Below, piece after piece: positions 12,697-32,873 of a stretch of DNA of 39,249 nucleotides (position 1 is its first letter; the number at the start of each line of letters is the position of its first letter). Under the pieces are notes generated by a model. The model had not been told where the DNA came from, searched no databases, and was given only the letters and a program-made list of their open reading frames with translations. This DNA is from a virus, in IMG/VR virus record IMGVR_UViG_3300025120_000172, positions 1 through 39,249 of that record; one strand, given 5' to 3'. The position numbers and the translations under genes are program-made.

Positions 12697-14436
12697 ATGG
12701 CACAACGAGATAACAGAGGAATAGGTGGTTTTCAAGGACCTGCAAATATTGGCGGTGAAGGTGGTTTAATACCCACTATTAAAATGCCACAAACTCGTAT
12801 GAGTTTTCCTACTCCTCGTAGCGGCGGTGGAGGAAGCCGTAAAGTTAAACCTCTTGAAAGACTAGCAGGCATAGTTCCTTACGGTATTGAAGCAGCTTTT
12901 AATGCTTTTGAAGAGCCTCCTAAAATACTTTCAGAAAAAGAATATTACGAAACTATTCGTCCAGAAGGAGCTCCTGTCCCAGAAGAGCCAACTGAATTAG
13001 AAAAAGCCCGTTACAAAGCTTATCAAGTTGTTGGACCTAAAGATACACAAGATAGATTTGACGCTGAAACTATTGCTATGCTGGCGGGTAGTTTAGCCAC
13101 GGGCAGAGGTTCTGACCAGTACAATCAAACACTCAGAAACATACGGTCGTCTAAACAGGCGGCTAGTAATACAAAAGAAAATAGGCGGGGGGCTATTATC
13201 CAAGATAATTTACAAAAAATAACGCCTAAAAATATGACGTTTGTCGATATAAACTCGTATAAAGAAAATGGATTAACCACAGATAATGTTCGTAAAGGTT
13301 TTATGGCGGGTAGTAAAGCGGCTCCTGAATATTTAATAGAGCAAAAAAACCGAAAAGGATTTATTGATGCAAATAGCGACGAAGCTCTTAATTATTTACT
13401 TGATAATAAAGGGCAAGGCACCGTAGCAAATTGGGTTCCTTTTACCACGATAGACGAATTTAAAGAAATACCTACTACTGCTGCTGCAAACACAGCAGCA
13501 GATTTACAAAAATGGGAAATAGGTTTTGCACAAAAAGAAACATCTTTATTAGACGTCCATAATACCGCGGGCGCGATAGTAGAACTCATGAATAAACAAA
13601 TCGCTGGCGAAGAAATAGGTGGTATTGGTTTTCAAGGAAAATTAACTCAGGCAATAAATAACGGTTTTGTTAATGTTGTCAAAACATTTGAAACTATAGC
13701 TAAAGTGAGTCCTGAAAAAAGTATGTTCAGTAAGAAAGCTTCGGGAGGAAATGTAGGTAGACAGGGAACAGGTTACCATGCCGAAACGTTGTATGAATTA
13801 TTACAACAAGACATGATGGATCCTGGAAGTGTTGATGACCAATTAGCAGCAGCTATGTCTGAGTTTGAAGGGGCAACTAAATATAAATTTATAGATAGAT
13901 TATCGAGTGGTTCCCTAGCTACTATCGAATATAATTCTCGTTTATTAAAATTAGCGTATGCTGCTGCCGCTGCTGCGGGTCAAACAGGTCGTACTTTATC
14001 CGATAAAGATTTACAATTTTTCTTAGAAATGGTTGGGGGAGGAAGTAACGACAGTCCTGAGGTTCAAAGAGCGGTTATACGAAATTTTGTACAAGATATT
14101 ACTAGGGAAGTAGATAACGATCCGAGGGTTATGTTGAATAAAAGAAAAATTAATAATCAATACGACATGAATAACCCAACACAACGCGGGATTATTAAAA
14201 CGTATTACGATGAAGTTATAGATGATGAGACTGGAAAAATAACTGGTTATAATTTTGTACCTTTTTATGGACGATACGATAGGTCAAATCCATCTATTAA
14301 AAGATACATAAACTCATTAGGCAGCTATAAAGGTGGCGAAGCGTTGGATCCATCTGAAAATACTAAAGCTGAGGTAGACGATTTACGTCCTGATTCTACC
14401 CAATCGATATACGACTATTTTAATACTGGAATCTAA
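12697..14436 (+). CDS. Internal virion protein candidate
   Basis: 579 residues. The N-terminal 55 residues are Gly/Arg/Pro rich and likely flexible; the remainder is mostly alpha-helical, with no membrane segment and no recognised catalytic motif. It includes a helix-rich region with LLDVHNTAGAIVELMNKQIA (about 290-310) and a conserved-looking stretch SGSLATIEYNSRLLKLAYAA (about 401-420) followed by GQTGRTLSDKDLQFFLEM. The next gene starts 2 bases after the stop. It probably belongs to the set of proteins packed with or ejected before DNA, but no family name can be given. Confidence 0.45.
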   Translation: MAQRDNRGIGGFQGPANIGGEGGLIPTIKMPQTRMSFPTPRSGGGGSRKVKPLERLAGIVPYGIEAAFNAFEEPPKILSEKEYYETIRPEGAPVPEEPTELEKARYKAYQVVGPKDTQDRFDAETIAMLAGSLATGRGSDQYNQTLRNIRSSKQAASNTKENRRGAIIQDNLQKITPKNMTFVDINSYKENGLTTDNVRKGFMAGSKAAPEYLIEQKNRKGFIDANSDEALNYLLDNKGQGTVANWVPFTTIDEFKEIPTTAAANTAADLQKWEIGFAQKETSLLDVHNTAGAIVELMNKQIAGEEIGGIGFQGKLTQAINNGFVNVVKTFETIAKVSPEKSMFSKKASGGNVGRQGTGYHAETLYELLQQDMMDPGSVDDQLAAAMSEFEGATKYKFIDRLSSGSLATIEYNSRLLKLAYAAAAAAGQTGRTLSDKDLQFFLEMVGGGSNDSPEVQRAVIRNFVQDITREVDNDPRVMLNKRKINNQYDMNNPTQRGIIKTYYDEVIDDETGKITGYNFVPFYGRYDRSNPSIKRYINSLGSYKGGEALDPSENTKAEVDDLRPDSTQSIYDYFNTGI

Positions 14437-19004: not shown

Positions 19005-19511
19005 ATGCCAGGATATAAAAAACCAATGAAAGGATATGCAAACGGAGGCGCACCAGGAATGGGACAACTCGATAGTATTATGATGACAGGAGGACCTTCT
19101 GATGTACCTATGGGCGCACCAGGAATGGGTGGAGGACAACCTCCAATGCCCTCTCAAGGAATGCCTATGGGTGAAGACCCTATGATGGCGCTTATGGACA
19201 ACGAAGCTATGCTTGGAGAAGGCGGTATGGAAAGAGGTATGGAAGCCCCTATCTCTATTGAAGAAGACGCAGGTGCTTTAGCCGAAGCCGTGGTTGGTAG
19301 AGCCGAAGGTGATATTGGTGCTGCGGTTGCTATATTAGACACCGCTAAAGCTATGTTAATGAGTGCTGGTGAAGAGCCAATGATGGAAGATCCTATGATG
19401 GCTAATATGGGTAGACCATTAATGCGTAGTGGGGATAGAAAACCTGTTGGAATGTACGCTGGTGGTGGTGCTCTGACTAACGAAGACGCTCGTAAAAAAT
19501 ACTTTACTTAA
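19005..19511 (+). CDS. Gly/Met-rich small virion-associated protein
   Basis: 168 residues, about one quarter Gly and Met, with segments GYANGGAPGMGQLDSIMM and MPMGEDPMMALMDNEAM and a more ordered acidic helix (about 82-120: ISIEEDAGALAEAVVGRAEG). It ends MYAGGGALTNEDARKKYFT. Gly/Met-rich proteins of this kind sit at the end of the virion block in other marine phages; the role is unknown. It is the last + strand late gene and its final four bases overlap the end of the minus-strand helicase gene. Confidence 0.5.
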   Translation: MPGYKKPMKGYANGGAPGMGQLDSIMMTGGPSDVPMGAPGMGGGQPPMPSQGMPMGEDPMMALMDNEAMLGEGGMERGMEAPISIEEDAGALAEAVVGRAEGDIGAAVAILDTAKAMLMSAGEEPMMEDPMMANMGRPLMRSGDRKPVGMYAGGGALTNEDARKKYFT

Positions 19512-20950
19512 CCGATCCAGTTTTTCCATTTGTCGTCGCCTAGTACTTCTTGTGCTAGGCTGAGCTTGTCCCGTAACGCTTTAACAATTTTTTCATCTAC
19601 CGTATCTTTAGAGATCAGATCAATATAAGTTACCTTATTTACCTGTCCGATACGGTGTGCTCTGTCTTCAGATTGTAGCCGTTTTTCTAAATCGTAGTTG
19701 TTGCTGTAATAAACTACGTTACTTGCTTGATGAAGCGTGATCCCGTAACCACCTGTTTGGGTATTACTTATTAAATATTGTAAATTAGAATCAGGATCCT
19801 GGAATCGATCAATAATAGGTTGACGTTCTTCTTCAGGTGTTCCTCCGTAGTATGTCGCAACAGCATCTACTCCCACAATATCTTGTAACTTTTTAAGAAT
19901 ACGTTTAATATCGTGTTGATAGTTAGCCCAAATAATAGTTTTACCCTGTACTTCTTCTAATACTTTTAGTAGTTCTTCTAAACGGTTGTTCTTTATTTCT
20001 TGTTCTTCGCCGTTATCGTTCTTAACGAATCCACAAACTACTTGGTGTAGCCTAAGTATTTGAGTAAGTACTGAAGTAACACTAACCATTTCTTGTGAAT
20101 CAAGTTCAGCTATCGCGTAGTCTTTTATTTGAGTGTAGATTTTCTTTTGTTCAGGAGTTAGTTCTACTTCTCTACGTTGGTATACTTTATCAGGAAGGTC
20201 TAAACAGTCTTTCTTTAATACTCGGTACGAGAATTGACTTACTTTTTCTGTTAACTCCTCTAGGTTCTGATAACCGACAACTTGTCTAAAAGTACGTTGC
20301 CCCATGCTTCGGCTAACCACTTTTGCGTAATGGTTTTGAAACGTGTAGAAAGAACTATAACCTAATAGATCAACGCAAAGAAATTCTGCTTGAGTATATA
20401 GGTCAAGAGGGGATTGTGTAACGGGGAAACCTGTTAATATTCTTCTGTATTTACTTTGTAATGCCAACTTTACGAGGCTCTTGGTTCGTTGTGCTTTGGG
20501 GTTTTTAATAGTAGTAGACTCGTCTATTGCCATTAAAGCGTTATGAGTTAGTAAAAATTTCTCTACAAACGCAACTCCTTTTTTAGTACTGAAAGCTTCT
20601 ACATTAATAACCAATATTTTTAAATCATCAGTTACTTCAAATAGTTTTGTTAATTGTATTTTTTGTTTTTTAGTTGGGGCAGGGTTCCATACTCCAACAT
20701 GTCGTAACACATGATCAGGCATGTGCGCGGGTATTTCTCTTTCCGACCAGTTTTTATACACCCCTTTAGGTGCTACAATAACTGCGGCATTAATAACCCC
20801 TCTGTCATATAGGACAGCTATGTTGTCTACTAGGACTTTTGATTTGCCTGTCCCCATTTCCATGAAGTAGGCATACTCTTTTTGATCCCAAGATCTTTTT
20901 AAAGCCTCAAGCTGATGCTCATAGGGCTCCGTCTTAAACTTATATTTCAT
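19508..20950 (-). CDS. SNF2/DEAD-like superfamily 2 helicase
   Basis: 480 residues on the minus strand. N-terminal RecA-like domain: PYEHQ (Gln13), Walker A MGTGKSK (Gly33-Ser37), IVAPKGVYKNW (motif Ia), DEST (143-146, motif II) followed by TIKNP, and LTGFPVTQSPLDLYT (motif III). C-terminal domain: SNTQTGGYGITLHQASNVVY and RAHRIGQ (motifs V and VI), the SNF2-type signature. These enzymes use ATP to translocate on double-stranded DNA. A role in replication, recombination or remodelling of phage DNA is likely. It is the only minus-strand gene; the start faces the regulatory gap at 20951 and the end overlaps the last late gene by 4 bases. The ribosome binding site is weak (AGAAAG). Confidence 0.9.
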   Translation of the reverse strand: MKYKFKTEPYEHQLEALKRSWDQKEYAYFMEMGTGKSKVLVDNIAVLYDRGVINAAVIVAPKGVYKNWSEREIPAHMPDHVLRHVGVWNPAPTKKQKIQLTKLFEVTDDLKILVINVEAFSTKKGVAFVEKFLLTHNALMAIDESTTIKNPKAQRTKSLVKLALQSKYRRILTGFPVTQSPLDLYTQAEFLCVDLLGYSSFYTFQNHYAKVVSRSMGQRTFRQVVGYQNLEELTEKVSQFSYRVLKKDCLDLPDKVYQRREVELTPEQKKIYTQIKDYAIAELDSQEMVSVTSVLTQILRLHQVVCGFVKNDNGEEQEIKNNRLEELLKVLEEVQGKTIIWANYQHDIKRILKKLQDIVGVDAVATYYGGTPEEERQPIIDRFQDPDSNLQYLISNTQTGGYGITLHQASNVVYYSNNYDLEKRLQSEDRAHRIGQVNKVTYIDLISKDTVDEKIVKALRDKLSLAQEVLGDDKWKNWIG

Positions 20951-22976: not shown

Positions 22977-24500
22977 ATGTCGTTAGCAGAGGAATTTGCT
23001 ACACGTTATGCTGGTTTACGGCAAGCATATGGAACCTTTACAGCTACGAATGAATCACGAGAAGATGGAAAGGAAGGTGGTAGAAACGTTACTATATCTA
23101 AACAGTTATCTGAAAAAGATCTTTTAGAGTTATGGGTAAAACACCTTTCAGGAGAACAAAGCATTGGGCTTGTCCCGATAGACGAGAACAATGCTTGTGT
23201 TTGGGGTGCGATTGATGTTGATGAGTATCAACTAGATCTTAAAGAACTTGCTAAAAAATTAGCTAAACATAAGTTACCCTTAGTAGTCTGCCGTAGCAAA
23301 AGTGGAGGGGCACATATATACTTGTTCATAGAGGAACCAGTACCCGCGTCATTATTACAGAGAAAACTGAGGCAGTTAGCCGCATCTATTGGATATGGTC
23401 AAGCTGAAATATTCCCAAAACAAACTCAGTTATTATTAGACAGAGGGGATCGAGGTAGTACATTAAACATGCCATATTTCGGAGGAGAAAACTCCACTAG
23501 ATATGCGTATGGATTAGCTGGAGAGGCTCTTACTCCAGAGCAGTTTATAAAAAGAGTAGAAGAAATAACATTAACTATTAAAGAAATAGAGAAATTAGAG
23601 GCTAGTCCTTTAGTTGAAAAGATAGATTGGTTAGATCAATCACCACCTTGTATACAACATCTCGTTGTTCAAGGTTTTCCTAAAGGGACTCGTAACTCGG
23701 GGCTGTTTAATGTAGGAGTGTTCTTACGAAAGAAATACCCAGACGAATGGGAAAAACGATTAGAGTTAACAAACCTAGAGCATATGCAACCCCCACTAGG
23801 GGCTCAAGAAGTGCTTACGATAGGTAAACAATTAAAAAGGAAAGATTATTTCTACAGGTGTAATGACCAACCGATAGCAAGCCATTGTAACAGCCCTTTA
23901 TGTAGGACTCGTAAACACGGTATAGGGGCTAACGGAGGAACACCGTTGTTTAGTAATTTAACAAAACAAGACAGTGACCCACCTATATGGTTCCTAGATG
24001 TAGAAGGTGGTCGCCTAGAGTTAGAAACAGATGATCTTTTAAATCAAAATAGGTTTCAACGTAAGTGTATGGACGCTTTAAATAAGATACCGCCGAAAGT
24101 AAAAGAAAACGTTTGGCGTCAAATTATTCAACAGTTACTAGATAGTTTAACCGTAGTAGAAGTACCAAAAGAATCCTCTACCGAAGGTCATTTTTTAGAG
24201 TTGCTTGAAACGTTTTGTACTGAAAGACCTGCTCGAGAAAAAGATGAGCTACTACTACATAAACCGTGGACAGAAAATGAAAGAACTTATTTCAGATTAG
24301 CAGATCTTATGGAATATTTACATAGAAATAATTTTAAAGATTACCCTAGAAATAAACTAACTTCTAAATTAAAACAAATGGGAGGGAAGCCTCACTTTTT
24401 CAATATAAAGGGTAGAGGTGTAAATGTTTGGTACATAAATGAATTTATATCTCAAACCGAGTCACACGACTTACCAGAATTTAATGAGAATCCAATATGA
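22977..24500 (+). CDS. DNA primase of the archaeo-eukaryotic (AEP) superfamily
   Basis: 507 residues, start with AAGGAG 8 bases upstream. The AEP motifs are readable: GAIDVDEY (Asp80 and Asp82, metal ligands), CRSKSGGAHIYLFI (His113, the sxH motif) and AEIFPKQTQ followed by LNMPYFGG. This form is close to the AEP domain of TOTE-type proteins and to primases of marine phages. A possible zinc site, Cys-x7-His-Cys-x4-Cys, lies in CNDQPIASHCNSPLC (about residue 300). The C-terminal 100 residues look winged-helix like (LADLMEYLHRNNFKDYPRN). It would make primers for the family A polymerase at 31017. It overlaps the AlkB gene by 4 bases. Confidence 0.85.
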   Translation: MSLAEEFATRYAGLRQAYGTFTATNESREDGKEGGRNVTISKQLSEKDLLELWVKHLSGEQSIGLVPIDENNACVWGAIDVDEYQLDLKELAKKLAKHKLPLVVCRSKSGGAHIYLFIEEPVPASLLQRKLRQLAASIGYGQAEIFPKQTQLLLDRGDRGSTLNMPYFGGENSTRYAYGLAGEALTPEQFIKRVEEITLTIKEIEKLEASPLVEKIDWLDQSPPCIQHLVVQGFPKGTRNSGLFNVGVFLRKKYPDEWEKRLELTNLEHMQPPLGAQEVLTIGKQLKRKDYFYRCNDQPIASHCNSPLCRTRKHGIGANGGTPLFSNLTKQDSDPPIWFLDVEGGRLELETDDLLNQNRFQRKCMDALNKIPPKVKENVWRQIIQQLLDSLTVVEVPKESSTEGHFLELLETFCTERPAREKDELLLHKPWTENERTYFRLADLMEYLHRNNFKDYPRNKLTSKLKQMGGKPHFFNIKGRGVNVWYINEFISQTESHDLPEFNENPI

Positions 24501-25078
24501 AAAAATTTATTAAAGGAGCTTTACACGACTATTACCCAGACATACCTTTTTGGGATGACCCTGTGGATAGAGAGTTTAATGGTGAAAAAATCTCAGGAAG
24601 ACCAACTAAAGCATATGGTTCTAAGGATTTCAAATACGCAGGCAAAGTATATACACCCGAACCATGGAGTTATTCTATAGAACCTATTAAATGGTCGGTA
24701 GAAACCCTAGTTTTTAAAGAACTAGGTAGAGCAATAGATTTTAATTTTTGTCTATGTGGTATGTATAAAAACGGAAACGTATCGATACCTCATCATTCAG
24801 ACACTGTCCCTAGACAAAAAGATTTAGTCGTATCTATTTCGTTTGGTGCTCCTAGAGTATTTGAATGGAATCAATATGGGTATAACATTAAAAAAGAAAG
24901 TAAGACCAGCAAGATAGATATTTATGGAACGCAAACTAAAACTACAACCCAGTATTTAATGGAACAGGGTGATGTATTTATATTTGACGGAAAGTCTCAA
25001 ATGACAGCTACCCATGCTGTCCCACCTCTAAAAGGAACAGGCGAACGAATTAACCTAACCTTTCGGAGTGGAATATGA
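24497..25078 (+). CDS. AlkB-family 2-oxoglutarate/Fe(II) dioxygenase
   Basis: 193 residues. Iron ligands are His100-x-Asp102 (IPHHSDTVP) and His173 (TATHAVPP), and the 2-oxoglutarate site is Arg184-x-Asn-x-Thr-Phe-Arg190 (RINLTFR), the exact AlkB pattern. VSISFGAPRVFEW and GDVFIFDG complete the fold. AlkB enzymes remove alkyl groups from DNA or RNA bases by oxidation. The gene lies between primase and a zinc ribbon plus SF1 helicase with 4-base overlaps on both sides, so it is made with the replication proteins. It could protect single-stranded phage DNA, or act on modified pyrimidines; the second idea is speculation. Confidence 0.9.
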   Translation: MKKFIKGALHDYYPDIPFWDDPVDREFNGEKISGRPTKAYGSKDFKYAGKVYTPEPWSYSIEPIKWSVETLVFKELGRAIDFNFCLCGMYKNGNVSIPHHSDTVPRQKDLVVSISFGAPRVFEWNQYGYNIKKESKTSKIDIYGTQTKTTTQYLMEQGDVFIFDGKSQMTATHAVPPLKGTGERINLTFRSGI

Positions 25079-25215
25079 ACTGTTGGCATTGCCGTGAAAA
25101 ATTAATTTGGGGTGGAGACCACGATATAGATGAAGAAAACGAAGATTACAACATGGTTACTAATTTATCTTGTTCTAATTGTGGTGCTTTTGTAGAAGTG
25201 TATAATAAGAAATGA
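25075..25215 (+). CDS. Small zinc-ribbon protein
   Basis: 46 residues starting MNCWHCREKLIWGG and with SCSNCGAFVEV near the end; CxxC at residues 3-6 and a second CxxC about 29 residues later give a four-Cys zinc ribbon. It overlaps AlkB upstream and the SF1 helicase downstream by 4 bases each, so all three are probably translated as one unit. It may bind nucleic acid or a partner protein; no specific family. Confidence 0.7.
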   Translation: MNCWHCREKLIWGGDHDIDEENEDYNMVTNLSCSNCGAFVEVYNKK

Positions 25216-26708
25216 TGTTACCCGCACACACTCAAGTAATTCTTGGACCCCCAGGAACAGGAAAGACAAGCACGTTACTTGGTCTTATAGAAGATGAACT
25301 AGAAAAAGGAACAGACCCGACCCGAATTGGTTTCTTTACGTTTACTAAAAAAGCAGTAACAGAAGGTAAACAACGAGCAATGGAACGTTTCGAATTAACT
25401 CAGAAAGACCTACCATTTTTTCGTACTCTACATTCTTTGGCTTTTAGACAATTAGGTCTATCTAAAGAAAGTGTAATGGATTTAAAAGATATCCGAGAGT
25501 TAAACGAGATTCTTAATATACGGTTAACAGGCGGTTCAAGCGCTGATTCAGGGCACTTGTTCGGGATGACCCACGATGATCGATTAGCCTTTATAGAAAA
25601 CTTATCTCGTATGAGACAAATATCATTAGAAGATCAGTGGCATGAGGTCGACGATGCAGTAGGTTGGTTTGAACTAGAAAGATATGCTAGAGGTTTAGAA
25701 TTATTTAAAGAGGATAGGTTGTTAGTTGATTACACAGACATGTTAAAACTATTTTTAGAAAAAGGGGACGTGCCTAAATTTGAAGCAGTTTTTGTTGACG
25801 AAGCTCAAGACTTGTCTCCTCTACAATGGGCAGTAGTTCGTAAGATTATAAAAAATGCAAATAGAGTTTATGTCGCTGGTGATGATGATCAAGCAATATA
25901 TAAGTGGGCGGGAGCTGATGTAGATTATTTAATTAAGAACGCGGGCAACGCTACAATATTAGAACAGTCGTATAGGATTCCTTCAGCGGTACATGAATTA
26001 GCTAGTCGCTGTATTAGTCAAGTTAGATCCAGGATACATAAAACATGGCTTCCTAAAAAAGAAACAGGTTTAGTTAGGTGGGAACCTTCAATAGAATTAA
26101 TCAATATGGAAAAGGGGGACTGGTTAGTGCTTGCTCGTACTAATTATTTACTAGAACAAATAGATGAGCATTGCAGAAACGAAGGTTGGTTTTTTGAAGT
26201 TAAAGGTAGACCGAGTATTTCTGAATCAAAAGTGCGGGCAGTATTAAATTGGGAACAATTATTAACTGGAAAAGAATTACCCTTATCTGAATGCGTCAAT
26301 CTGTTAAAGTATATAAAAGTTCGTAACCCTAACTCCTTAGATGTTTTAGACATTGACGTAAGCATCACCCTTAAGGGTCTTAGGTACAGGTTCCCTGACT
26401 TACCTGAAGGTCATTGGTACGATGCGTTAACTTCATTAAGCCCAAAAGACATCAGTTACATAAGAGCCATGCTTCGTAGAGGAGAAAGAATTACCAAAGA
26501 ACCTAGGATTCGTTTGTCAACGATCCATGCTGCGAAAGGTGGGGAAGCAACTAACGTAGTATTGCTTACCGATATTACTAAAAGAGTTTATAAAAACTAT
26601 CAGGAGAACCCTGATGACGAGAACAGAGTGTTTTATGTTGGGCTTACTAGAGCGAAAGAAAACTTGTATTTAATTGAGCCCTCAACAACGCGCTGCTTCC
26701 AAATATAA
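25212..26708 (+). CDS. UvrD/Rep-like superfamily 1 DNA helicase
   Basis: 498 residues. Walker A GPPGTGKT (residues 12-19), motif Ia FFTFTKKAV, motif II DEAQD (196-200), motif III GDDDQAIYKWAGAD, motif IV near EQSYRIPS, motif V STIHAAKGGEATNVV and motif VI VFYVGLTRAKENLYL are all present, so the ATPase core is complete. At 498 residues it is shorter than UvrD or Rep (about 700), the usual phage size. SF1A enzymes move 3' to 5' on ssDNA. It is likely the replicative or recombination helicase of the phage. ATG codons at 25212 and 25215 are both possible; the first overlaps the zinc-ribbon stop. Confidence 0.9.
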   Translation: MMLPAHTQVILGPPGTGKTSTLLGLIEDELEKGTDPTRIGFFTFTKKAVTEGKQRAMERFELTQKDLPFFRTLHSLAFRQLGLSKESVMDLKDIRELNEILNIRLTGGSSADSGHLFGMTHDDRLAFIENLSRMRQISLEDQWHEVDDAVGWFELERYARGLELFKEDRLLVDYTDMLKLFLEKGDVPKFEAVFVDEAQDLSPLQWAVVRKIIKNANRVYVAGDDDQAIYKWAGADVDYLIKNAGNATILEQSYRIPSAVHELASRCISQVRSRIHKTWLPKKETGLVRWEPSIELINMEKGDWLVLARTNYLLEQIDEHCRNEGWFFEVKGRPSISESKVRAVLNWEQLLTGKELPLSECVNLLKYIKVRNPNSLDVLDIDVSITLKGLRYRFPDLPEGHWYDALTSLSPKDISYIRAMLRRGERITKEPRIRLSTIHAAKGGEATNVVLLTDITKRVYKNYQENPDDENRVFYVGLTRAKENLYLIEPSTTRCFQI

Positions 26709-26773: not shown

Positions 26774-27277
26774 ATGAACATATTTTATTTTGACGAGGAT
26801 CCTTACGTCGCGGCTCAGGCTCAACCTGACAAGCTGCTCGTAAAGATGCCTTTAGAAACTGCACAGATGTTGTGCACCGCCCACCGCGTAACGGGTTGTG
26901 AGGATTACGCAGATGAACACAACTTATATAAGACTGCTTATATGAATCATCCATGTACTATTTGGGCTCGAGAAAACCAAGCTAACTATTCATGGCTTTA
27001 CGCACATTTTCTTGCGTTAGGTAATGAGTACACGTATCGCTACGATAAAGTCCACGCTAGTTTAGAAAAACTAGCCGATGCTTTATTAATGCTACCAACT
27101 GGCTTGTGGGACACGAGCAAACAAATGTCAGATATACCTCAGTGTATGCCTGATGAATATAAAAACGACGACCCGATAACCGCGTACCGTGATTACTGTA
27201 TAAATGAAAAGTATTACGCTAAGTGGGAAAAGGGTAGAAATAAACCAACTTGGTGGGAGGAACCATGTCATCAATAA
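26774..27277 (+). CDS. Conserved phage protein of unknown function
   Basis: 167 residues with an excellent ribosome binding site (AAAGGAG, 6 bases). It starts MNIFYFDEDPYVAAQAQPDK, followed by LLVKMPLETAQMLCTAHR, a signature I recall from a widespread phage family without known function. Many Trp, Tyr and His residues (NHPCTIWAREN, NYSWLYAHFLAL, PQCMPDEYK) suggest an enzyme or ligand-binding helical protein. It opens the operon with the methyltransferase and hmdU-kinase-like genes, and overlaps the methyltransferase start by 13 bases, so a role in nucleotide or base metabolism is possible but unproven. Confidence 0.6.
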   Translation: MNIFYFDEDPYVAAQAQPDKLLVKMPLETAQMLCTAHRVTGCEDYADEHNLYKTAYMNHPCTIWARENQANYSWLYAHFLALGNEYTYRYDKVHASLEKLADALLMLPTGLWDTSKQMSDIPQCMPDEYKNDDPITAYRDYCINEKYYAKWEKGRNKPTWWEEPCHQ

Positions 27278-28182
27278 GAAAGAAATTAAAAGTTAATGAA
27301 AACGATAGTAAAAATACTCGTATGGATATTGCTAGCGCAGGTGTTTTGGGAAACTGGAGACCTGATGAGCTCACCCATATCAGTAGATTCGATAAAATTG
27401 CCTCTCTCTGTGTAGAAGAAGCTAAAAACTTAGAAAGACCCATAACTGCTATGGAAGTAGGTTGTGGAGAACTCTGGGCGCTTAGAGTTTTGTATAAATC
27501 ATACACGGTTAAGAAGTCTGATATTATTGAATCATATCAAGGTTTTGATATAGACCCCGCGTGTGCTATAGAAAACCCATTCTGGTCTAATGGAGGAGAG
27601 CCTATTGAAAACTCAACGTGGCTTAAGAACTTTAATGCCACTATTACTATACAAGATGTAACCGTTCCTAGGAAAAATAAAGAAGGAGATCAATATGGCA
27701 ACATGTTCGATATACCTTCTGAAACTATAGATTTTTTCTGGACGACAGAAGTTATTGAACACATGGAAAGAGAGTTTGTTCCTATTTGGTTAAAAGATGC
27801 GGCAAGATGCTTAAGACCTGATGGTCTAGCGTATGTTTCTACACCTAACCACGACGGTTCTAACGATAAACTACCTGAAGACCATATTTATGAATGGGGT
27901 TTTGACGAGCTTAAAGAAGAACTAGAAAAACATTTTCATATTGAATCTGTGGTAGGAACTTTTATGCAAATGCCTAATCTAAAGAAAGCACAAAAACAAT
28001 ATGCAGAACCCACTGTAGATGGATTACCTGTTAATTCTTTTAACAAGTTTCCTCAAGCGTGGACAACTGAACAGTTACTAATGCTTAGAGAAAGATTTGG
28101 TAAACAGTTTTTAAGAATGGTAGTAGCTACTCCCTATCCTGAATATGCAAATAATTGTGCGTGGGTTTTAAGAAAAAAATAA
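27265..28182 (+). CDS. Class I SAM-dependent methyltransferase
   Basis: 305 residues from the ATG at 27265, chosen because GGAGG lies 4 bases upstream. Motif I is MEVGCGELWAL (residues 63-73), acidic residues of motif II are in QGFDIDP, and the post-I region WTTEVIEHM and DAARCLRPDGLAYVSTPNHD is typical of the Methyltransf_11/23 type, which act on small molecules, lipids or nucleotides rather than having a classical DNA-methylase NPPY motif. It overlaps the next gene, a hmdU DNA kinase helical-domain protein, by one base. That link suggests it methylates a modified base or its precursor; this is inference. Confidence 0.8.
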   Translation: MSSIRKKLKVNENDSKNTRMDIASAGVLGNWRPDELTHISRFDKIASLCVEEAKNLERPITAMEVGCGELWALRVLYKSYTVKKSDIIESYQGFDIDPACAIENPFWSNGGEPIENSTWLKNFNATITIQDVTVPRKNKEGDQYGNMFDIPSETIDFFWTTEVIEHMEREFVPIWLKDAARCLRPDGLAYVSTPNHDGSNDKLPEDHIYEWGFDELKEELEKHFHIESVVGTFMQMPNLKKAQKQYAEPTVDGLPVNSFNKFPQAWTTEQLLMLRERFGKQFLRMVVATPYPEYANNCAWVLRKK

Positions 28183-29066
28183 TGACAGAATTTCTACCAA
28201 AAGAATTAGATACTTATATCTATTGGATTCACGAAAGAGAAGTGATACGAATAGCTAAAGAAGATTTAAATCTAAGCCCTCCTTGGACAGATGACAAAGT
28301 TTTACAAAAGTATAAATTTTGTCAAGTCTTCCGAGAAGATGACAGAACTACTCGTTGGTTCTGTGAACACATCAGAGAGCCTCTTAAAGACTCTACTGAC
28401 GTTTTTATGGCTACGGTTATTTTCAGGTGGTTTAATTACATAGAGTCGGGAAAGACATTAATTAAGCACGATCTTCTTTGTAATTGGGATAGAAAGAAAG
28501 CTATTGAAGAAATATCTAAACAAAATAAATGGGTAACGGGGGCTTATATAATCAAAACTCCAAACCGAATGAATAAAGTAACAGGAGTTGCTGAATGTAT
28601 TTCTCACATGTGGAAAGATAAAAATTATTTAATTGATAAAATGAATTCTACACATAGTTTAGAAGACATTTGGAATGTTTTACGAGATTATCCATACATG
28701 GGACCGTTTATGGCATATGAAGTAGTTACTGATTTAAGACACACATACATAGGATATGGATGCGATGATATCCTGACTTGGGCTAATCCTGGACCAGGAG
28801 CCATGCGAGGGCTCAATAGGCTTACGGGCAGAGAACTTGGGTTTTGTAAACGTAGTCATCCTTGGAACGAAGAAATGCAAGAATTATTAAAAATAGCCCA
28901 CGAAAGGCTAAACAACAATATTATCGATCTTGATAAATTTGAGATGCGAGAAGTAGAAGGAGGACTCTGCGAGTTCGATAAGTACTCGAGGACTGTAAAG
29001 AAAGAGGGTAAAACACGCAGTATCTATAAATATAATAAAGATCTTCCATTGGTTGAAGGTCTATAA
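28182..29066 (+). CDS. 5-hmdU DNA kinase helical-domain protein (alpha-glutamyl/putrescinyl-thymine pyrophosphorylase family)
   Basis: 294 residues, starting on the last base of the methyltransferase stop. Diagnostic blocks: FCQVFREDDRTTRWF (about 46-60), DVFMATVIFRWFNYIESGKT (about 71-90), GAYIIKTP, MAYEVVTDLRHT (177-188) and WANPGPGAMRGLNRLTGRE (200-218). These are the hallmark of the family linked to hypermodified thymidine in phages such as ViI, M6 and SP10, where a 5-hydroxymethyl-dU in DNA is activated for further elaboration. I see no Walker A P-loop in this protein, so the fused kinase domain of some homologues is missing. Cytoplasmic; expected to act on phage DNA. Confident on the family, not on the reaction. 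Confidence 0.78.
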   Translation: MTEFLPKELDTYIYWIHEREVIRIAKEDLNLSPPWTDDKVLQKYKFCQVFREDDRTTRWFCEHIREPLKDSTDVFMATVIFRWFNYIESGKTLIKHDLLCNWDRKKAIEEISKQNKWVTGAYIIKTPNRMNKVTGVAECISHMWKDKNYLIDKMNSTHSLEDIWNVLRDYPYMGPFMAYEVVTDLRHTYIGYGCDDILTWANPGPGAMRGLNRLTGRELGFCKRSHPWNEEMQELLKIAHERLNNNIIDLDKFEMREVEGGLCEFDKYSRTVKKEGKTRSIYKYNKDLPLVEGL

Positions 29067-29077
29067 AGGAGAAAGAA

Positions 29078-29299
29078 ATGAGCGAATATAAAGATCAAGC
29101 GATTGAGCTATTAGAAGAATACGGAGACACAGTAGATGTTTATTACACACAGTTTTTGGAAGTAGCGTTTTTTCTTAAAGTTCCAGCTAACTATGGATTA
29201 GTTATTGGATTCTTAAAAAGGAAACTACCTCAGCTGACTGAAGAACAACTAGGTTTTTTAGTTGGAGAAATTACCTCAGCCTATCATGATTCTGTATGA
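29078..29299 (+). CDS. Small helical protein in the base-modification cassette
   Basis: 73 residues with an AAAGGAG ribosome binding site 6 bases upstream. The sequence is helix rich (KDQAIELLEEYGDTVDV; LTEEQLGFLVGEITSAYH) with a hydrophobic centre LEVAFFLKVPANYGLVIGFL. No family recognised. It lies 11 bases after the hmdU-kinase-like gene and overlaps the thymidylate synthase-like start by 4 bases, so it is made with them and may be an accessory factor. Confidence 0.55.
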   Translation: MSEYKDQAIELLEEYGDTVDVYYTQFLEVAFFLKVPANYGLVIGFLKRKLPQLTEEQLGFLVGEITSAYHDSV

Positions 29300-30336
29300 A
29301 AGTTATTAACGCGAGAAACGTGAATGATGCTCTTTTGTTGGGTTTAGATTTATTTCAAGACCCGAGAAACTTTAGGGAACAAGAAAGTAGAAACGGAACT
29401 ACTTATGAAGCTTTAGAACCTGTAACCACCGTTTATGAAAAACCTTGGGAACGAGTACTGTTACTTAAACTGAGAGACGCTAATCCTTTCTTCCATTTTA
29501 TAGAGGGACTTTGGATGCTGGCAGGTCGTAATGACCTAAAACCTTTAACTCATTTTGTTAAAAGCATGGAAAATTTTTCAGATGATGGCGAGACTTTATG
29601 GGGTGCTTATGGTCATAGATGGAAAAGTTATTTTCATAAAGATCAAATTAAATTAGTTATAGAAATGTTAAAAGCTAATCCTGATGATAGAAGGTGCGTT
29701 TTACAAATGTGGGACGCTAATAAAGATTTAAACAAACAAGGTAAAGACGTACCCTGCAACACTAATATTTATTTTAAAATACGAGATAAACAATTACACA
29801 TGACAGTATGCAATCGTTCTAACGACATGCTTTGGGGAGCTTACGGAGCTAATGCAGTACATATGTCTATGCTACAGGAGTATATAGCTAGTCATCTTAG
29901 AGTAACAATAGGAACGTATCGACAAGTAAGCGATAGTTTTCATGTGTATCACAATGAAGTTTGGGAAAGAGTAAAAGGAATAGAAATAAATCCTTGGACT
30001 TATTCAGAAATAAAAAACCCTTACGATCTTTTAGAAGGGACAGTTTACACTAATTTTATGACTCGCCCAGAAGTTTTTGATTGGGAACTAGATAGATTCT
30101 TTAGTATGGATTTTTACGAACCTTATGAAGATGCTTGGGAAAATCCTGGTTTCAAGGATATTGCTATACCTATGTTAAAAACATTTAACGCACATAAAGA
30201 AAGAGATTATGCGAAAGCATATAGAGAAGTAATGAAAATACTTCCAAACGATTGGATGACAGCTTGTTTCGATTGGATAAAGAAACGAGATGCGTCTTGG
30301 ACACTTAATAATAACGGAGGAAACAATGGCGAATAA
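29296..30336 (+). CDS. Thymidylate synthase family; dUMP 5-hydroxymethylase candidate
   Basis: 346 residues. Catalytic Cys154 in DVPCNTNIYFKI, phosphate-binding Arg174-Ser175 in CNRSNDMLWGAYGANAV, and YRQVSDSFHVYHNE near the third conserved block all fit the thymidylate synthase/deoxynucleotide hydroxymethylase fold. Asn186 sits where ThyA has the Asn that prefers uracil, while dCMP hydroxymethylases have Asp, so the substrate is probably dUMP. It uses methylene-tetrahydrofolate to make dTMP or, if it is a hydroxymethylase, 5-hydroxymethyl-dUMP. The canonical ThyA C-terminus (PVAI/V) is not seen; the end is Asn/Gly rich. The neighbour at 28182 favours the hydroxymethyl version. Starts by a 4-base overlap with the small gene before it. 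Confidence 0.8.
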   Translation: MKVINARNVNDALLLGLDLFQDPRNFREQESRNGTTYEALEPVTTVYEKPWERVLLLKLRDANPFFHFIEGLWMLAGRNDLKPLTHFVKSMENFSDDGETLWGAYGHRWKSYFHKDQIKLVIEMLKANPDDRRCVLQMWDANKDLNKQGKDVPCNTNIYFKIRDKQLHMTVCNRSNDMLWGAYGANAVHMSMLQEYIASHLRVTIGTYRQVSDSFHVYHNEVWERVKGIEINPWTYSEIKNPYDLLEGTVYTNFMTRPEVFDWELDRFFSMDFYEPYEDAWENPGFKDIAIPMLKTFNAHKERDYAKAYREVMKILPNDWMTACFDWIKKRDASWTLNNNGGNNGE

Positions 30337-30694
30337 GTGGGAACGTATGCGCGATATAGCGCAGTTGGATTTATCAGCTTTAAAGAAAGCTGAAGAGTCC
30401 TATGGGAATTCATGGAGGCGACGCGGTGGTGTGGGTGCTTTTATGATGTTGGCTCGTAAATTTGATAGAATAGAACACCAGTCTGAAAGACATGGGTGGG
30501 ACGTATTCGAGGCAGGTGAAGCATTTAAAGGCGAAGCAGGTCTACTTGATGATATACGAGATTTACGAAGGTATCTGATATTGTGTGAAGAATTTATTCT
30601 TAACAATCCAGATGAAATTAATAATGAAAAAATGGAGGAAACAGAATGGGAATACTCGACTGGTTCAGAAGAAAAACAACAAAACCAAGAATAG
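30326..30694 (+). CDS. Helical protein, DUF1599/Nmad1-like candidate
   Basis: 122 residues from the ATG at 30326 (GGAGG 6 bases upstream; overlaps the previous gene by 11 bases). The core AEESYGNSWRRRGGVGAFMM followed by LARKFDRIE and DDIRDLRRYLILCEEF follows the YG-x-SW...K-x-x-RI pattern of a helical family described around nucleotide modification (DUF1599/Nmad1). The match is from memory of the pattern and is tentative. Position directly behind the thymidylate synthase-like gene supports a link to base modification. Confidence 0.5.
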   Translation: MANKWERMRDIAQLDLSALKKAEESYGNSWRRRGGVGAFMMLARKFDRIEHQSERHGWDVFEAGEAFKGEAGLLDDIRDLRRYLILCEEFILNNPDEINNEKMEETEWEYSTGSEEKQQNQE

Positions 30695-31017
30695 CTGACG
30701 CGCAGGGAAGAAGTCCTTTCGAACAAGCTAAAGAAATTTTGTTACAAAATAAAACAAAGGAAGATTTACTTTCTGCTCAAATGAAAGAAGCTACTGTCAA
30801 ACTTGAAAAGTTTGAAAAGATTTCTGTTGTTGAAGCAGATTTGCCAAAACCTAAACGTGCTAGAACTAAAAAAGGCATATATAAGGCAGACGACAAATCA
30901 ACTCCTAATGTTAATGAAGCGTGGGAAGGTGGAAAAGCACCTGTTAAATCTAAGGTAAAAAAAGCTAAACCTACAAAGAAAACAGTAAAAATAAAAAGGG
31001 TAACAAAAAATAAATAA
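30646..31017 (+). CDS. Hypothetical basic protein
   Basis: 123 residues with GGAGG 7 bases before the ATG. The first half is helical (MGILDWFRRKTTKPRIADAQ), the last 35 residues are Lys rich (SKVKKAKPTKKTVKIKRVTK), like a nonspecific DNA-binding tail. It overlaps the upstream gene by 49 bases and the polymerase start by one base, so it may be a polymerase-associated factor. No family known. Confidence 0.5.
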   Translation: MGILDWFRRKTTKPRIADAQGRSPFEQAKEILLQNKTKEDLLSAQMKEATVKLEKFEKISVVEADLPKPKRARTKKGIYKADDKSTPNVNEAWEGGKAPVKSKVKKAKPTKKTVKIKRVTKNK

Positions 31018-32873
31018 TGCAATCCCCTATATTTGCTCCTGAAAGTGATTGGGTTATCCCCGATATTTTCCCTAAGTTTGCAGAAAACGAACGTATTGCT
31101 GTAGACTTAGAAACGTATGACCCCCACCTATTGACCTCTGGTCCAGGGTGGGCTACAAACAGAGGTCACATGGTTGGAGTTGGTGTCGCTACTAAAGATT
31201 GGAAGGGTTACTTTCCAATTCGCCATGAAGGCGGTGGCAACCTTGATGAGGCAGTAGTCTTGCGATGGTTACAGAATACTCTCTCTTCTACTAAAAGAGA
31301 GGTTATTTTTCATAATGCACTTTACGATGTTGGATGGTTGAGAAGAGAAGGAGTAGACGTAAAGGGTAAAATCCTCGACACTATGTTTGCTGCTCCACTC
31401 ATAGATGAGAACCGATACTCTTATTCTCTCGACGCACTCGGACAAACGTATTGTGGAGAAAAGAAAGACGAGTCGCTGTTGCAAGATGCTGCTTTAGCTT
31501 GGGGCATTAATCCTAAAGCGGAGATGTATAAACTACATTCTAAATACGTTGGGTTTTATGGTGAACAAGATGCAGCACTTACACTTAAACTCTATGAAAA
31601 ATTAAAAATAGAATTACAAGAACAAAACTTAGAACCAATCTACGATATAGAGTGTAGATTAATTCCTTTACTTTTAGAAATGAGGTGGAGGGGAGTTAGG
31701 GTAGATGAACAAAAAGCTGAAGAAGTCAGTAAAAAGTTATCTCTACAAGAACAAAAGTTACACATAGAAATAAAGAGAAAATACGGAGAAGATGTAAACC
31801 TATGGGCGAATGCGTCTTTACAAAAAGTTTTTGATAAAAACAATCTACCGTACCCTAGAACAGAAAAAGGCATGGCTAGTTTTCAAAGACAATGGCTAGA
31901 GGGTCATGAACACGAACTACCCCGAATGATTGTAAAAGCCAGGAAATTGAATAAAGCACGAACTACGTTTATAGATAAAATGATTTCAGAGCACGCAGTT
32001 AATGGAAGAATACATGCAGAAGCTCATCCCTTAAGAAATGATTCAGGAGGAACGGTTAGTGGTCGTTTTAGTTACAGTAACCCTAACTTACAACAAGTTC
32101 CTGCAAGAGATCCTGAACTAGGCACAATGATTAGATCGCTGTTTATACCTGAAGAAGGATGTAGGTGGGGTCTATTCGATTATTCTCAACAAGAGCCTCG
32201 ACTTACGGTACACTACGCAAATAAGATGGGTTTAATAGGGGCTAAGGAAGCCGTAACCGCGTATAGGGATAAGAACGCAGACTTCCATCAGATAGTTGCG
32301 GACATGGCTAATATACCCCGTAAACAAGCTAAAAATATAAACTTGGGACTAAGCTATGGAATGGGAAAACAAAAATTAATTAAAGAACTTGGTTTAGGTG
32401 ATTTAGAGGCTCAAGCTCTACTTACTAAATACCATGAAAAAGTACCCTTCATTAGAGGTCTACAAGATCAGTGCTCTAGAGTAGCACTTGACAGAGGGTA
32501 CATTAGAACTCTTGCAGGAAGACGATGTCATTTCGATTTATGGGAACATAAATATGATAAGACTATGCCTTTACCATTAGAAGAAGCAAGAGAAAAATAC
32601 GGAGATGTTTTAAAAAGGTCTTATACATATAAAGCCCTTAATAGACTGATTCAGGGCTCAGCGGCGGACATGACTAAGTTAGCCATGCTGGGTTTGTGGG
32701 AAGAAGGAATAGTTCCCCACGTCCAAGTCCACGATGAAGTGGACATATCTATTGAAGATGACGAACAAGCAGCGAAAGTTTCACGAATTATGGAAAACTG
32801 CGTCGATCTTGCTGTTCCTCTTACTGTAGATACAGAACTCGGTACTAGTTGGGGCGAAACGGAGGAAATTTAA
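31017..32873 (+). CDS. polA: Family A DNA polymerase with 3'-5' exonuclease
   Basis: 618 residues. Exonuclease domain: AVDLETYDP (Asp-x-Glu, Exo I), IFHNALYDVGWL (Exo II) and YVGFYGEQDA (Exo III). Polymerase domain: motif A WGLFDYSQQEPRLT (Asp388), motif B RKQAKNINLGLSYGM (Lys439, Leu443, Tyr447) and motif C VQVHDEVDIS (Asp573), so both activities look intact; there is no 5' nuclease domain, as in T7 gp5. Leu443 takes the place of E. coli Pol I Phe762, a site that influences speed and sugar selection. It is the phage replicative polymerase. The start overlaps the previous stop by one base, as does its stop with the next gene. Confidence 0.95.
   Translation: MQSPIFAPESDWVIPDIFPKFAENERIAVDLETYDPHLLTSGPGWATNRGHMVGVGVATKDWKGYFPIRHEGGGNLDEAVVLRWLQNTLSSTKREVIFHNALYDVGWLRREGVDVKGKILDTMFAAPLIDENRYSYSLDALGQTYCGEKKDESLLQDAALAWGINPKAEMYKLHSKYVGFYGEQDAALTLKLYEKLKIELQEQNLEPIYDIECRLIPLLLEMRWRGVRVDEQKAEEVSKKLSLQEQKLHIEIKRKYGEDVNLWANASLQKVFDKNNLPYPRTEKGMASFQRQWLEGHEHELPRMIVKARKLNKARTTFIDKMISEHAVNGRIHAEAHPLRNDSGGTVSGRFSYSNPNLQQVPARDPELGTMIRSLFIPEEGCRWGLFDYSQQEPRLTVHYANKMGLIGAKEAVTAYRDKNADFHQIVADMANIPRKQAKNINLGLSYGMGKQKLIKELGLGDLEAQALLTKYHEKVPFIRGLQDQCSRVALDRGYIRTLAGRRCHFDLWEHKYDKTMPLPLEEAREKYGDVLKRSYTYKALNRLIQGSAADMTKLAMLGLWEEGIVPHVQVHDEVDISIEDDEQAAKVSRIMENCVDLAVPLTVDTELGTSWGETEEI

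Follow-up and report, generated by a model that had tools for sequence, protein, structure and literature searches.

Locus and gene content

The stretch of DNA analysed here (the window) is IMG/VR record IMGVR_UViG_3300025120_000172 at its full length, and the subject of this analysis is a compact gene cassette between a helicase gene and the gene for DNA polymerase A (PolA), which resembles phage cassettes that hypermodify thymine by way of 5-hydroxymethyl-deoxyuridine (5-hmdU). Since the PolA of the window is 55.6% identical to that of phage 023Pt_psg01 and 49.5% identical to that of Pelagibacter phage HTVC023P, the window is, judged by its polymerase, a fragment of an HTVC023P-type pelagiphage, the complete relatives of which are about 60 kb long. 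No relatives at the DNA level were found in the phage collection. The features of the locus are as follows.

1-39,249: whole window, a linear virus record of IMG/VR type, 39,249 bases
25212-26708, plus strand: UvrD-like helicase (profile match), upstream flank of the cassette
27265-28182, plus strand: S-adenosylmethionine (SAM) methyltransferase, HEN1-like, class I, 305 amino acids (Methyltransf_23, E = 3.6e-11; E162-x-x-E165-H166 ... H207)
28182-29066, plus strand: HMUDK_hel protein (aGPT-Pplase1) with a predicted HhH-GPD DNA-glycosylase / 5-phosphomethyl-deoxyuridine (5-PmdU) glycinyltransferase fold and without a P-loop (PF18723, model)
29078-29299, plus strand: open reading frame (ORF) of 73 amino acids between HMUDK_hel and hydroxymethylase, recognisable in 55 of 80 relatives and so not always kept
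29296-30336, plus strand: M6-type dUMP hydroxymethylase-like protein of the thymidylate synthase family (phrog_5131; Cys154, Arg174-Ser175, Asn186)
30326-30694, plus strand: conserved helper of about 100-120 amino acids, no known family (SYG-SWR-RGG-GAFMMLARK ... LDDI-DLRRYL)
30646-31017, plus strand: lysine-rich ORF of 123 amino acids between helper and PolA, present in 64 of 80 relatives
31017-32873, plus strand: PolA, downstream flank of the cassette (identities to 023Pt_psg01 and HTVC023P as above)

The first-pass annotation, made from the window alone, had described four genes (27265, 28182, 29296 and 30326) linked by overlaps or by gaps of 11 bases or less. All four are present on the plus strand and the spacing holds, but the linkage is carried by the 73-amino-acid ORF, which had not been counted. 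The methyltransferase and HMUDK_hel genes overlap by one base, an 11-base gap leads to the small ORF at 29078, this ORF overlaps the hydroxymethylase gene by 4 bases, and the latter overlaps the helper gene by 11 bases. The chain extends past the helper through the 123-amino-acid ORF to PolA, and the membership of this ORF in the module is uncertain. Profile searches of Pfam and PHROG assigned no family to the 123-amino-acid ORF, and none above the cut-off to the 73-amino-acid one. Gene order and spacing are kept in most of the 80 related loci.

In the complete genomes of HTVC023P and 023Pt_psg01, primase, helicase and PolA follow one another as in the window, with helicase and PolA separated by only about 0.4 kb; searched throughout, these genomes yielded no HMUDK_hel, no methyltransferase of the window's family and no thymidylate synthase. 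Therefore, from these genome comparisons, the cassette appears to be gained or lost as one block at the helicase-PolA site.

The core proteins and the helper

The Methyltransf_23 match of 27265 agrees with its earlier description as a SAM methyltransferase. When a profile of 42 methyltransferase sequences was compared with the PDB, HEN1 proteins were the best matches (4xrp at 3.6e-11, then 3jwg, 4xcx, 3jwi and 5wy0), and residues E162, E165, H166 and H207 align with the metal ligands of these five structures. In HEN1 the ligands form an E-x-x-E-H motif with a distant His (Glu796, Glu799, His800 and His860 in Arabidopsis; Glu132, Glu135, His136 and His181 in human; PMC10781085). All four positions are invariant in 145 of 145 unique full methyltransferase sequences, as are Asp34, His38 and Arg41 in the N-terminal region. 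Because the ligands are both aligned and invariant, metal-assisted O-methylation by 27265 is favoured, the ligand set itself naming no substrate. The predicted structure has a class I fold (pLDDT 83.7). In the fold search HEN1 (3htx) reached Z 15.6, tied with many other methyltransferases (top Z 17.1), yet it has the highest identity among the matches listed (20%); the search singles out no methyltransferase subfamily, HEN1 included. The gene context points to hydroxymethyl pyrimidines as the target, not to 2'-O-methylation of RNA 3' ends.

The first-pass annotation had placed 28182 in the helical family associated with 5-hmdU kinases, and the Pfam profile supports this placement: PF18723 matches residues 9-275 with E = 7.9e-44 and 150.5 bits against a curated cut-off of 25, and phrog_2396 matches with E = 4.6e-61. 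Both hallmark blocks, AYEVVTDLRHT and WANPGPGAMRGLNRL, are present, and in an alignment of 47 sequences all family-invariant residues are kept (R19, D38, R51, D54, R82, N85, D184, D196, W200, G204, G206, E259, C263 and E264). The structure, predicted with high confidence (pLDDT 94.2) from alignment rows of the window and IMG/VR only, as for 27265, aligns in VIA-align with the 5-PmdU glycinyltransferase (PUGT) of phage PaMx11 (8z2n_B; Z 11.2, 215 aligned residues, root-mean-square deviation 3.7 Å), tied with HhH-GPD DNA glycosylases, including 8-oxoguanine DNA glycosylases, at Z 10-11; for a helical fold, such values lend support without being proof. Foldseek gave weak E-values only (best 0.037), and the sequence search for a solved structure of HMUDK_hel returned none that was significant. 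Because the matched folds are base-flipping, HMUDK_hel could plausibly, on the model, serve to present 5-hmdU in DNA. The proposal that 28182 itself activates 5-hmdU as a kinase had to be abandoned: the protein has no P-loop, and phage M6 carries HMUDK_hel (gp55) and the kinase (gp54, PF18748) as separate genes, so that HMUDK_hel is not the kinase; the separate kinase gene is missing here.

Asparagine at a key position of the thymidylate synthase family (Asn177 in E. coli thymidylate synthase) fits dUMP, and aspartate (Asp179 in T4 dCMP hydroxymethylase) fits dCMP. In 29296 the residues noted earlier (Cys154, Arg174-Ser175 and Asn186) are present and support a hydroxymethylase of the dUMP type. 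The protein matches phrog_5131 (thymidylate synthase) with E = 1.4e-111, far ahead of other thymidylate synthase families, and also Pfam Thymidylat_synt. Its closest phage relatives are M6 gp58 and the Yuavirus hydroxymethylases (46-47% identity), the top PDB match of the hydroxymethylase profile is a CMP hydroxymethylase, and the enzyme accompanies HMUDK_hel at nearly every locus. It is probably a dUMP hydroxymethylase of the M6 gp58 type and the candidate maker of 5-hmdUMP.

The helper 30326 had been compared with DUF1599/Nmad1, and this likeness was not recovered: searched against Pfam at E up to 1, neither 30326 nor 12 relatives matched that family, and 30326 matched no other. Its core is almost invariant (SYGxSWxxRGGVGAFMMLARK ... 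LDDIxDLRRYL) and travels with HMUDK_hel and hydroxymethylase across phages and bacteria; the helper was found in 77 of 80 relatives, in the FkbM lineage described below and in bacterial trios. No tailoring enzyme lies within 6 kb of these trios of HMUDK_hel, hydroxymethylase and helper (L347, L348, L350, L351 and L355, from Hyphomicrobiaceae/Hyphomonadaceae and others). In Hyphomicrobium sp. CS1BSMeth3 (L350) the trio adjoins recA and a uracil-DNA-glycosylase-like gene, and in bacterial trio loci the helper core is duplicated inside one protein.

Kinase absence and partner genes at other loci

With E values up to 1 allowed, neither the window nor 46 IMG/VR records that encode a close HMUDK_hel, included because the window is a fragment, gave a match to the 5-hmdU kinase (PF18748) or to the amino acid:DNA transferase (ADDT, PF18724); the M6 and Lucjan controls were positive for the kinase, and for ADDT they scored 2e-48 and 4e-28, respectively. 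As the Lucjan kinase scored weakly with Pfam, a profile of 16 kinase sequences was built, which detected the M6 (6e-70) and Lucjan (2e-62) kinases. Neither the window nor any of 18 long records (57-68 kb) gave a hit, and the idea of a divergent kinase overlooked by Pfam was rejected for them. Among window ORFs of at least 80 amino acids the Walker A pattern occurs only in a 1171-amino-acid ORF at 14438 and in the helicase at 25212, and no small P-loop kinase was seen. Relatives of the methyltransferase are present in 45 of the 46 records (67-77% identity), and the gene adjoins HMUDK_hel directly upstream, which is the kinase slot in M6. The idea of a minimal cassette with a methyltransferase as its sole visible finishing enzyme thus stands for a whole lineage that lacks the kinase and the amino acid transferase.

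Three scans followed by hidden Markov model classification gave 122 unique HMUDK_hel proteins, whose neighbours within 6.5 kb were recorded; assignments of TET-associated glycosyltransferase (TAGT) and FkbM were checked against Pfam. The neighbour is a window-type methyltransferase in 72, a P-loop kinase in 34, an FkbM methyltransferase with a glycosyltransferase in eight, TAGT in five and none in three, proportions that are not unbiased since the sample consists of the best matches to chosen queries. All three loci in the last class lie near contig ends, and one of the 34 kinase loci also has TAGT. A methyltransferase of the window's type and a kinase never occur together among the 122. Since HMUDK_hel is also found at loci where its partner is a methyltransferase or a glycosyltransferase and a kinase is missing, its function cannot be tied to the kinase. 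Another 21 loci came from bacterial and archaeal assemblies; these are of kinase and glycosyltransferase types, apart from five that have no tailoring enzyme up to 6 kb away.

In the HMUDK_hel tree, the proteins accompanied by the methyltransferase fall, apart from the distant locus L321, into one clade of 39 sequences (support 99/92). The single clade implies that in this lineage methyltransferase and HMUDK_hel came together a single time and then stayed paired. FkbM carriers likewise form one clade, and TAGT is scattered several times among kinase carriers. The FkbM loci (L084:10840-13120 and relatives, L337 and L349) have an FkbM methyltransferase and a glycosyltransferase (or TAGT) beside HMUDK_hel, a gene content that suggests hydroxymethyluracil carrying a methylated sugar. 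Since a glycosyltransferase accompanies FkbM in the loci classified, FkbM was not counted as further, independent evidence for methylation of a base. Separately, TAGT genes (PF20691) that have HMUDK_hel and a hydroxymethylase of the dUMP type as neighbours, and no kinase, lie at L159:5595-6431, L242:9999-10805 and L213:13860-14828, and the DNA of these phages probably contains glycosylated hydroxymethyluracil. The last of these cassettes has two HMUDK_hel genes (L213:8001-8963 and 13090-13926), the second strongly diverged.

The methyltransferase family (METHYLTRANSFERASE) also occurs at loci without HMUDK_hel, and there a hydroxymethylase of the thymidylate synthase family lies within 6 kb in 72 of 80 cases. 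The usual order is methyltransferase, NTP pyrophosphohydrolase, dNMP kinase and hydroxymethylase, often followed by PolA. The residue equivalent to Asn186 is Asp in all 74 hydroxymethylases at these loci and Asn in 240 of 241 at HMUDK_hel loci, counted without deduplication of loci. From this Asn/Asp split it follows that one methyltransferase family stands next to enzymes that make 5-hydroxymethyl-U and to others that make 5-hydroxymethyl-C; on these residues, the chemical feature common to both locus types would be the 5-hydroxymethyl group of the pyrimidine. The DNA of Stenotrophomonas phage AXL3 resisted 35 of 37 restriction enzymes, and the two that cut both have A/T-only sites (PMC7504290), a pattern that fits modified cytosine. 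Locus L321 combines a divergent HMUDK_hel with an AXL3-type methyltransferase and an Asp-type hydroxymethylase, and by its gene content is a second, independent pairing of methyltransferase and HMUDK_hel. Within its methyltransferase ORF (L321:7362-8642), an insert that keeps the reading frame looks like a LAGLIDADG homing endonuclease (GLIDGEGCF).

Three other genes of the window deserve mention. A pyrimidine-dimer-glycosylase-like protein (26774-27277; PF03013, E = 6e-6; phrog_624, E = 1e-55) is encoded directly 5' of the methyltransferase and, being seen in 40 of 80 relatives, is optional. An AlkB-like 2OG-Fe(II) oxygenase (24497-25078; PF13532, E = 4e-17) lies between primase and helicase; such oxygenases are among the auxiliary genes listed for HTVC023P-type phages in PMC9599517. 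The longest minus-strand ORF of the window (19508-20950) is a real gene by profile and encodes an SNF2-type helicase.

Proposed pathway, alternatives and known systems

What does this cassette make? We consider it about an even chance (roughly 50%) that it encodes the phage 5-hmdU DNA modification pathway in a form that does without the kinase, ending in 5-methoxymethyl-dU. From the genes and their families, the conservation of catalytic-type residues, the matching folds, the linkage across the lineage and the absence of kinase and ADDT in relatives of 57-68 kb, we infer the substrate, step order, product and protective role of the cassette as follows. The enzyme 29296 would convert dUMP to 5-hmdUMP, which would reach phage DNA as 5-hmdU replacing some or all of the thymine. 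HMUDK_hel would then bind and flip 5-hmdU in DNA, or prepare it otherwise, and 27265 would O-methylate it to 5-methoxymethyl-dU. Because 5-hmdU in DNA is exposed to glycosylases (PMC6449724), the methyl cap could protect it from these enzymes as well as block restriction. A wider formulation is more tentative: it is possible that this HEN1-like family O-methylates phage 5-hydroxymethyl pyrimidines in general, giving 5-methoxymethyl-dU from 5-hmdU in the HMUDK_hel cassettes of ocean phages and 5-methoxymethyl-dC from 5-hydroxymethyl-deoxycytidine in AXL3-type phages, and that HMUDK_hel is an interchangeable module for handling 5-hmdU, working with a methyltransferase, kinase or glycosyltransferase, and not a part of the kinase.

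Several observations weigh against the proposed pathway. In the 5-hmdU context the partnership of methyltransferase and HMUDK_hel is, on the tree, one clade, so the co-occurrence is largely one event. The exact cassette is known from genes alone, with no cultured phage carrying it, and the evidence fits methylation of DNA and of 5-hmdUMP alike. UbiG/COQ3 O-methyltransferases share part of the E-x-x-E-H motif (PMC9774615), and with the motif occurring in small-molecule methyltransferases of this type too, it indicates a metal but not the substrate. The bacterial pairs of HMUDK_hel and hydroxymethylase without a nearby tailoring enzyme suggest that HMUDK_hel may have a separate function, and the FkbM methyltransferases, with their glycosyltransferases, probably methylate the sugar and thus lend no independent support.

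Of the alternatives, the one that survives best, unlikely as we judge it, is that the methyltransferase acts before polymerisation on 5-hmdUMP, or on the di- or triphosphate, so that a methoxymethyl nucleotide is incorporated and HMUDK_hel does another job, such as the removal or processing of hmdU left in the DNA. The dCMP-type cassettes, which put the methyltransferase among NTP pyrophosphohydrolase, dNMP kinase and hydroxymethylase with no HMUDK_hel, speak for this order of events; at HMUDK_hel loci, however, neither of the first two was recognised beside the methyltransferase, which is instead the immediate neighbour of HMUDK_hel, and its HEN1 relatives act on nucleic acid.

It is also rather improbable that SAM gives another group, or that the enzyme's target is a product formed later (transfer of carboxymethyl or aminocarboxypropyl, or methylation of an addition made by the host or an unrecognised enzyme), leaving a base bulkier than methoxymethyl. 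A phage enzyme, CmoX, is described as making carboxymethylcytosine (PMC12783734), and HMUDK_hel, resembling a glycinyltransferase fold, may add a group itself. Yet no carboxy-SAM or amine-making enzyme was recognised among the scanned window genes, and the HEN1 ligand set fits O-methylation.

We give still less credence to a methyltransferase that works outside base modification, for example on RNA, tRNA or host takeover, and is merely carried, the base staying 5-hmdU or being finished by host or unseen enzymes. The generic class I fold is compatible with such a role, and the PHROG matches of its relatives include 'tRNA methyltransferase', but co-occurrence in 45 of 46 records in a fixed slot, relatives beside hydroxymethylases at 72 of 80 other loci, and absence where the cassette is absent all argue for a role in it. 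Finally, it is very improbable that 29296 is a normal thymidylate synthase in a cassette that simply feeds the dTMP supply, for although the Thymidylat_synt match and Asn186 would suit it, the M6-type hydroxymethylases are its nearest relatives, phrog_5131 is well ahead, CMP hydroxymethylase is the top PDB match of the profile, and the gene is tied to HMUDK_hel at nearly every locus.

The pairing of hydroxymethylase and aGPT-Pplase1 in HTVC023P-type pelagiphages is already published (PMC9599517). What appears to be new, with priority not certain, is the methyltransferase as a third near-invariant member, the loss of kinase and ADDT, the finding that methyltransferase and kinase exclude each other, the metal-ligand set of HEN1 type and the association of this methyltransferase family with hydroxymethylases of the dCMP type as well. 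No report of methoxymethyl-uracil or -cytosine as a DNA base was found in the open literature searched, the original hypermodification papers lying outside that search. If the proposed pathway is right, a methoxymethyl pyrimidine would be an apparently unreported DNA base made in one SAM step that needs neither kinase nor amino acid, and the cassette would help to settle the function of HMUDK_hel/aGPT-Pplase1, which works here without its namesake kinase. The phage group concerned is a prominent one: according to PMC9599517, HTVC023P-type viral clusters rank first in global distribution and abundance in the Global Ocean Viromes (GOV) data.

Among known systems, the 5-(2-aminoethyl)-deoxyuridine (5-NedU) cassette of Pseudomonas phage M6 and the Yuaviruses offers the fullest comparison. 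In M6 the order is ADDT (gp51, PF18724), a pyridoxal phosphate (PLP) enzyme (gp52), a radical SAM enzyme (gp53), the P-loop 5-hmdU kinase (gp54, PF18748), HMUDK_hel (gp55), Nmad5 (gp56), gp57, hydroxymethylase (gp58), an HD protein (gp59), two small genes and PolA; the announcement of SN1, a related phage, reports the same kinds of genes (PMC9476957). The window shares the hydroxymethylase and HMUDK_hel just 5' of PolA, with order and strand as in M6 (46% and 35% identity, respectively), whereas the M6 kinase slot is taken by the methyltransferase, and ADDT, the PLP and radical SAM enzymes, Nmad5 and the YfbR-like HD protein of M6 are absent. The PaMx11-like phages (Abidjanvirus, Epaquintavirus) have the closest cultured HMUDK_hel (41-43% identity) and shared synteny, but carry a kinase, ADDT, a flavin (FAD) enzyme and an acetyltransferase where the window has the methyltransferase.

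Clades V, VIII and IX of the HTVC023P-type phages share with the window the pair of thymidylate synthase and aG/PT-PPlase1 near PolA, which PMC9599517 reads as thymidine hypermodification; its main text contains no word starting with 'methyl', names no methyltransferase and seems to conclude nothing from the missing kinase. HEN1 small-RNA 2'-O-methyltransferases are alike in class, in the E-x-x-E-H ... H ligands and as best PDB sequence matches, and unlike in that 27265 stands in a phage context with hydroxymethyl-pyrimidine enzymes, the apparent likeness being limited to the aligned methyltransferase domain. Stenotrophomonas phage AXL3 and its relatives have a member of the window's methyltransferase family, about 30% identical, next to a hydroxymethylase of pyrimidines, with the differences that this hydroxymethylase is of the dCMP type (Asp), that an NTP pyrophosphohydrolase and a dNMP kinase are present and HMUDK_hel is not, and that cytosine, not thymine, is probably modified. 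The AXL3-type relatives are a cultured system in which the chemistry of the methyltransferase is testable now.

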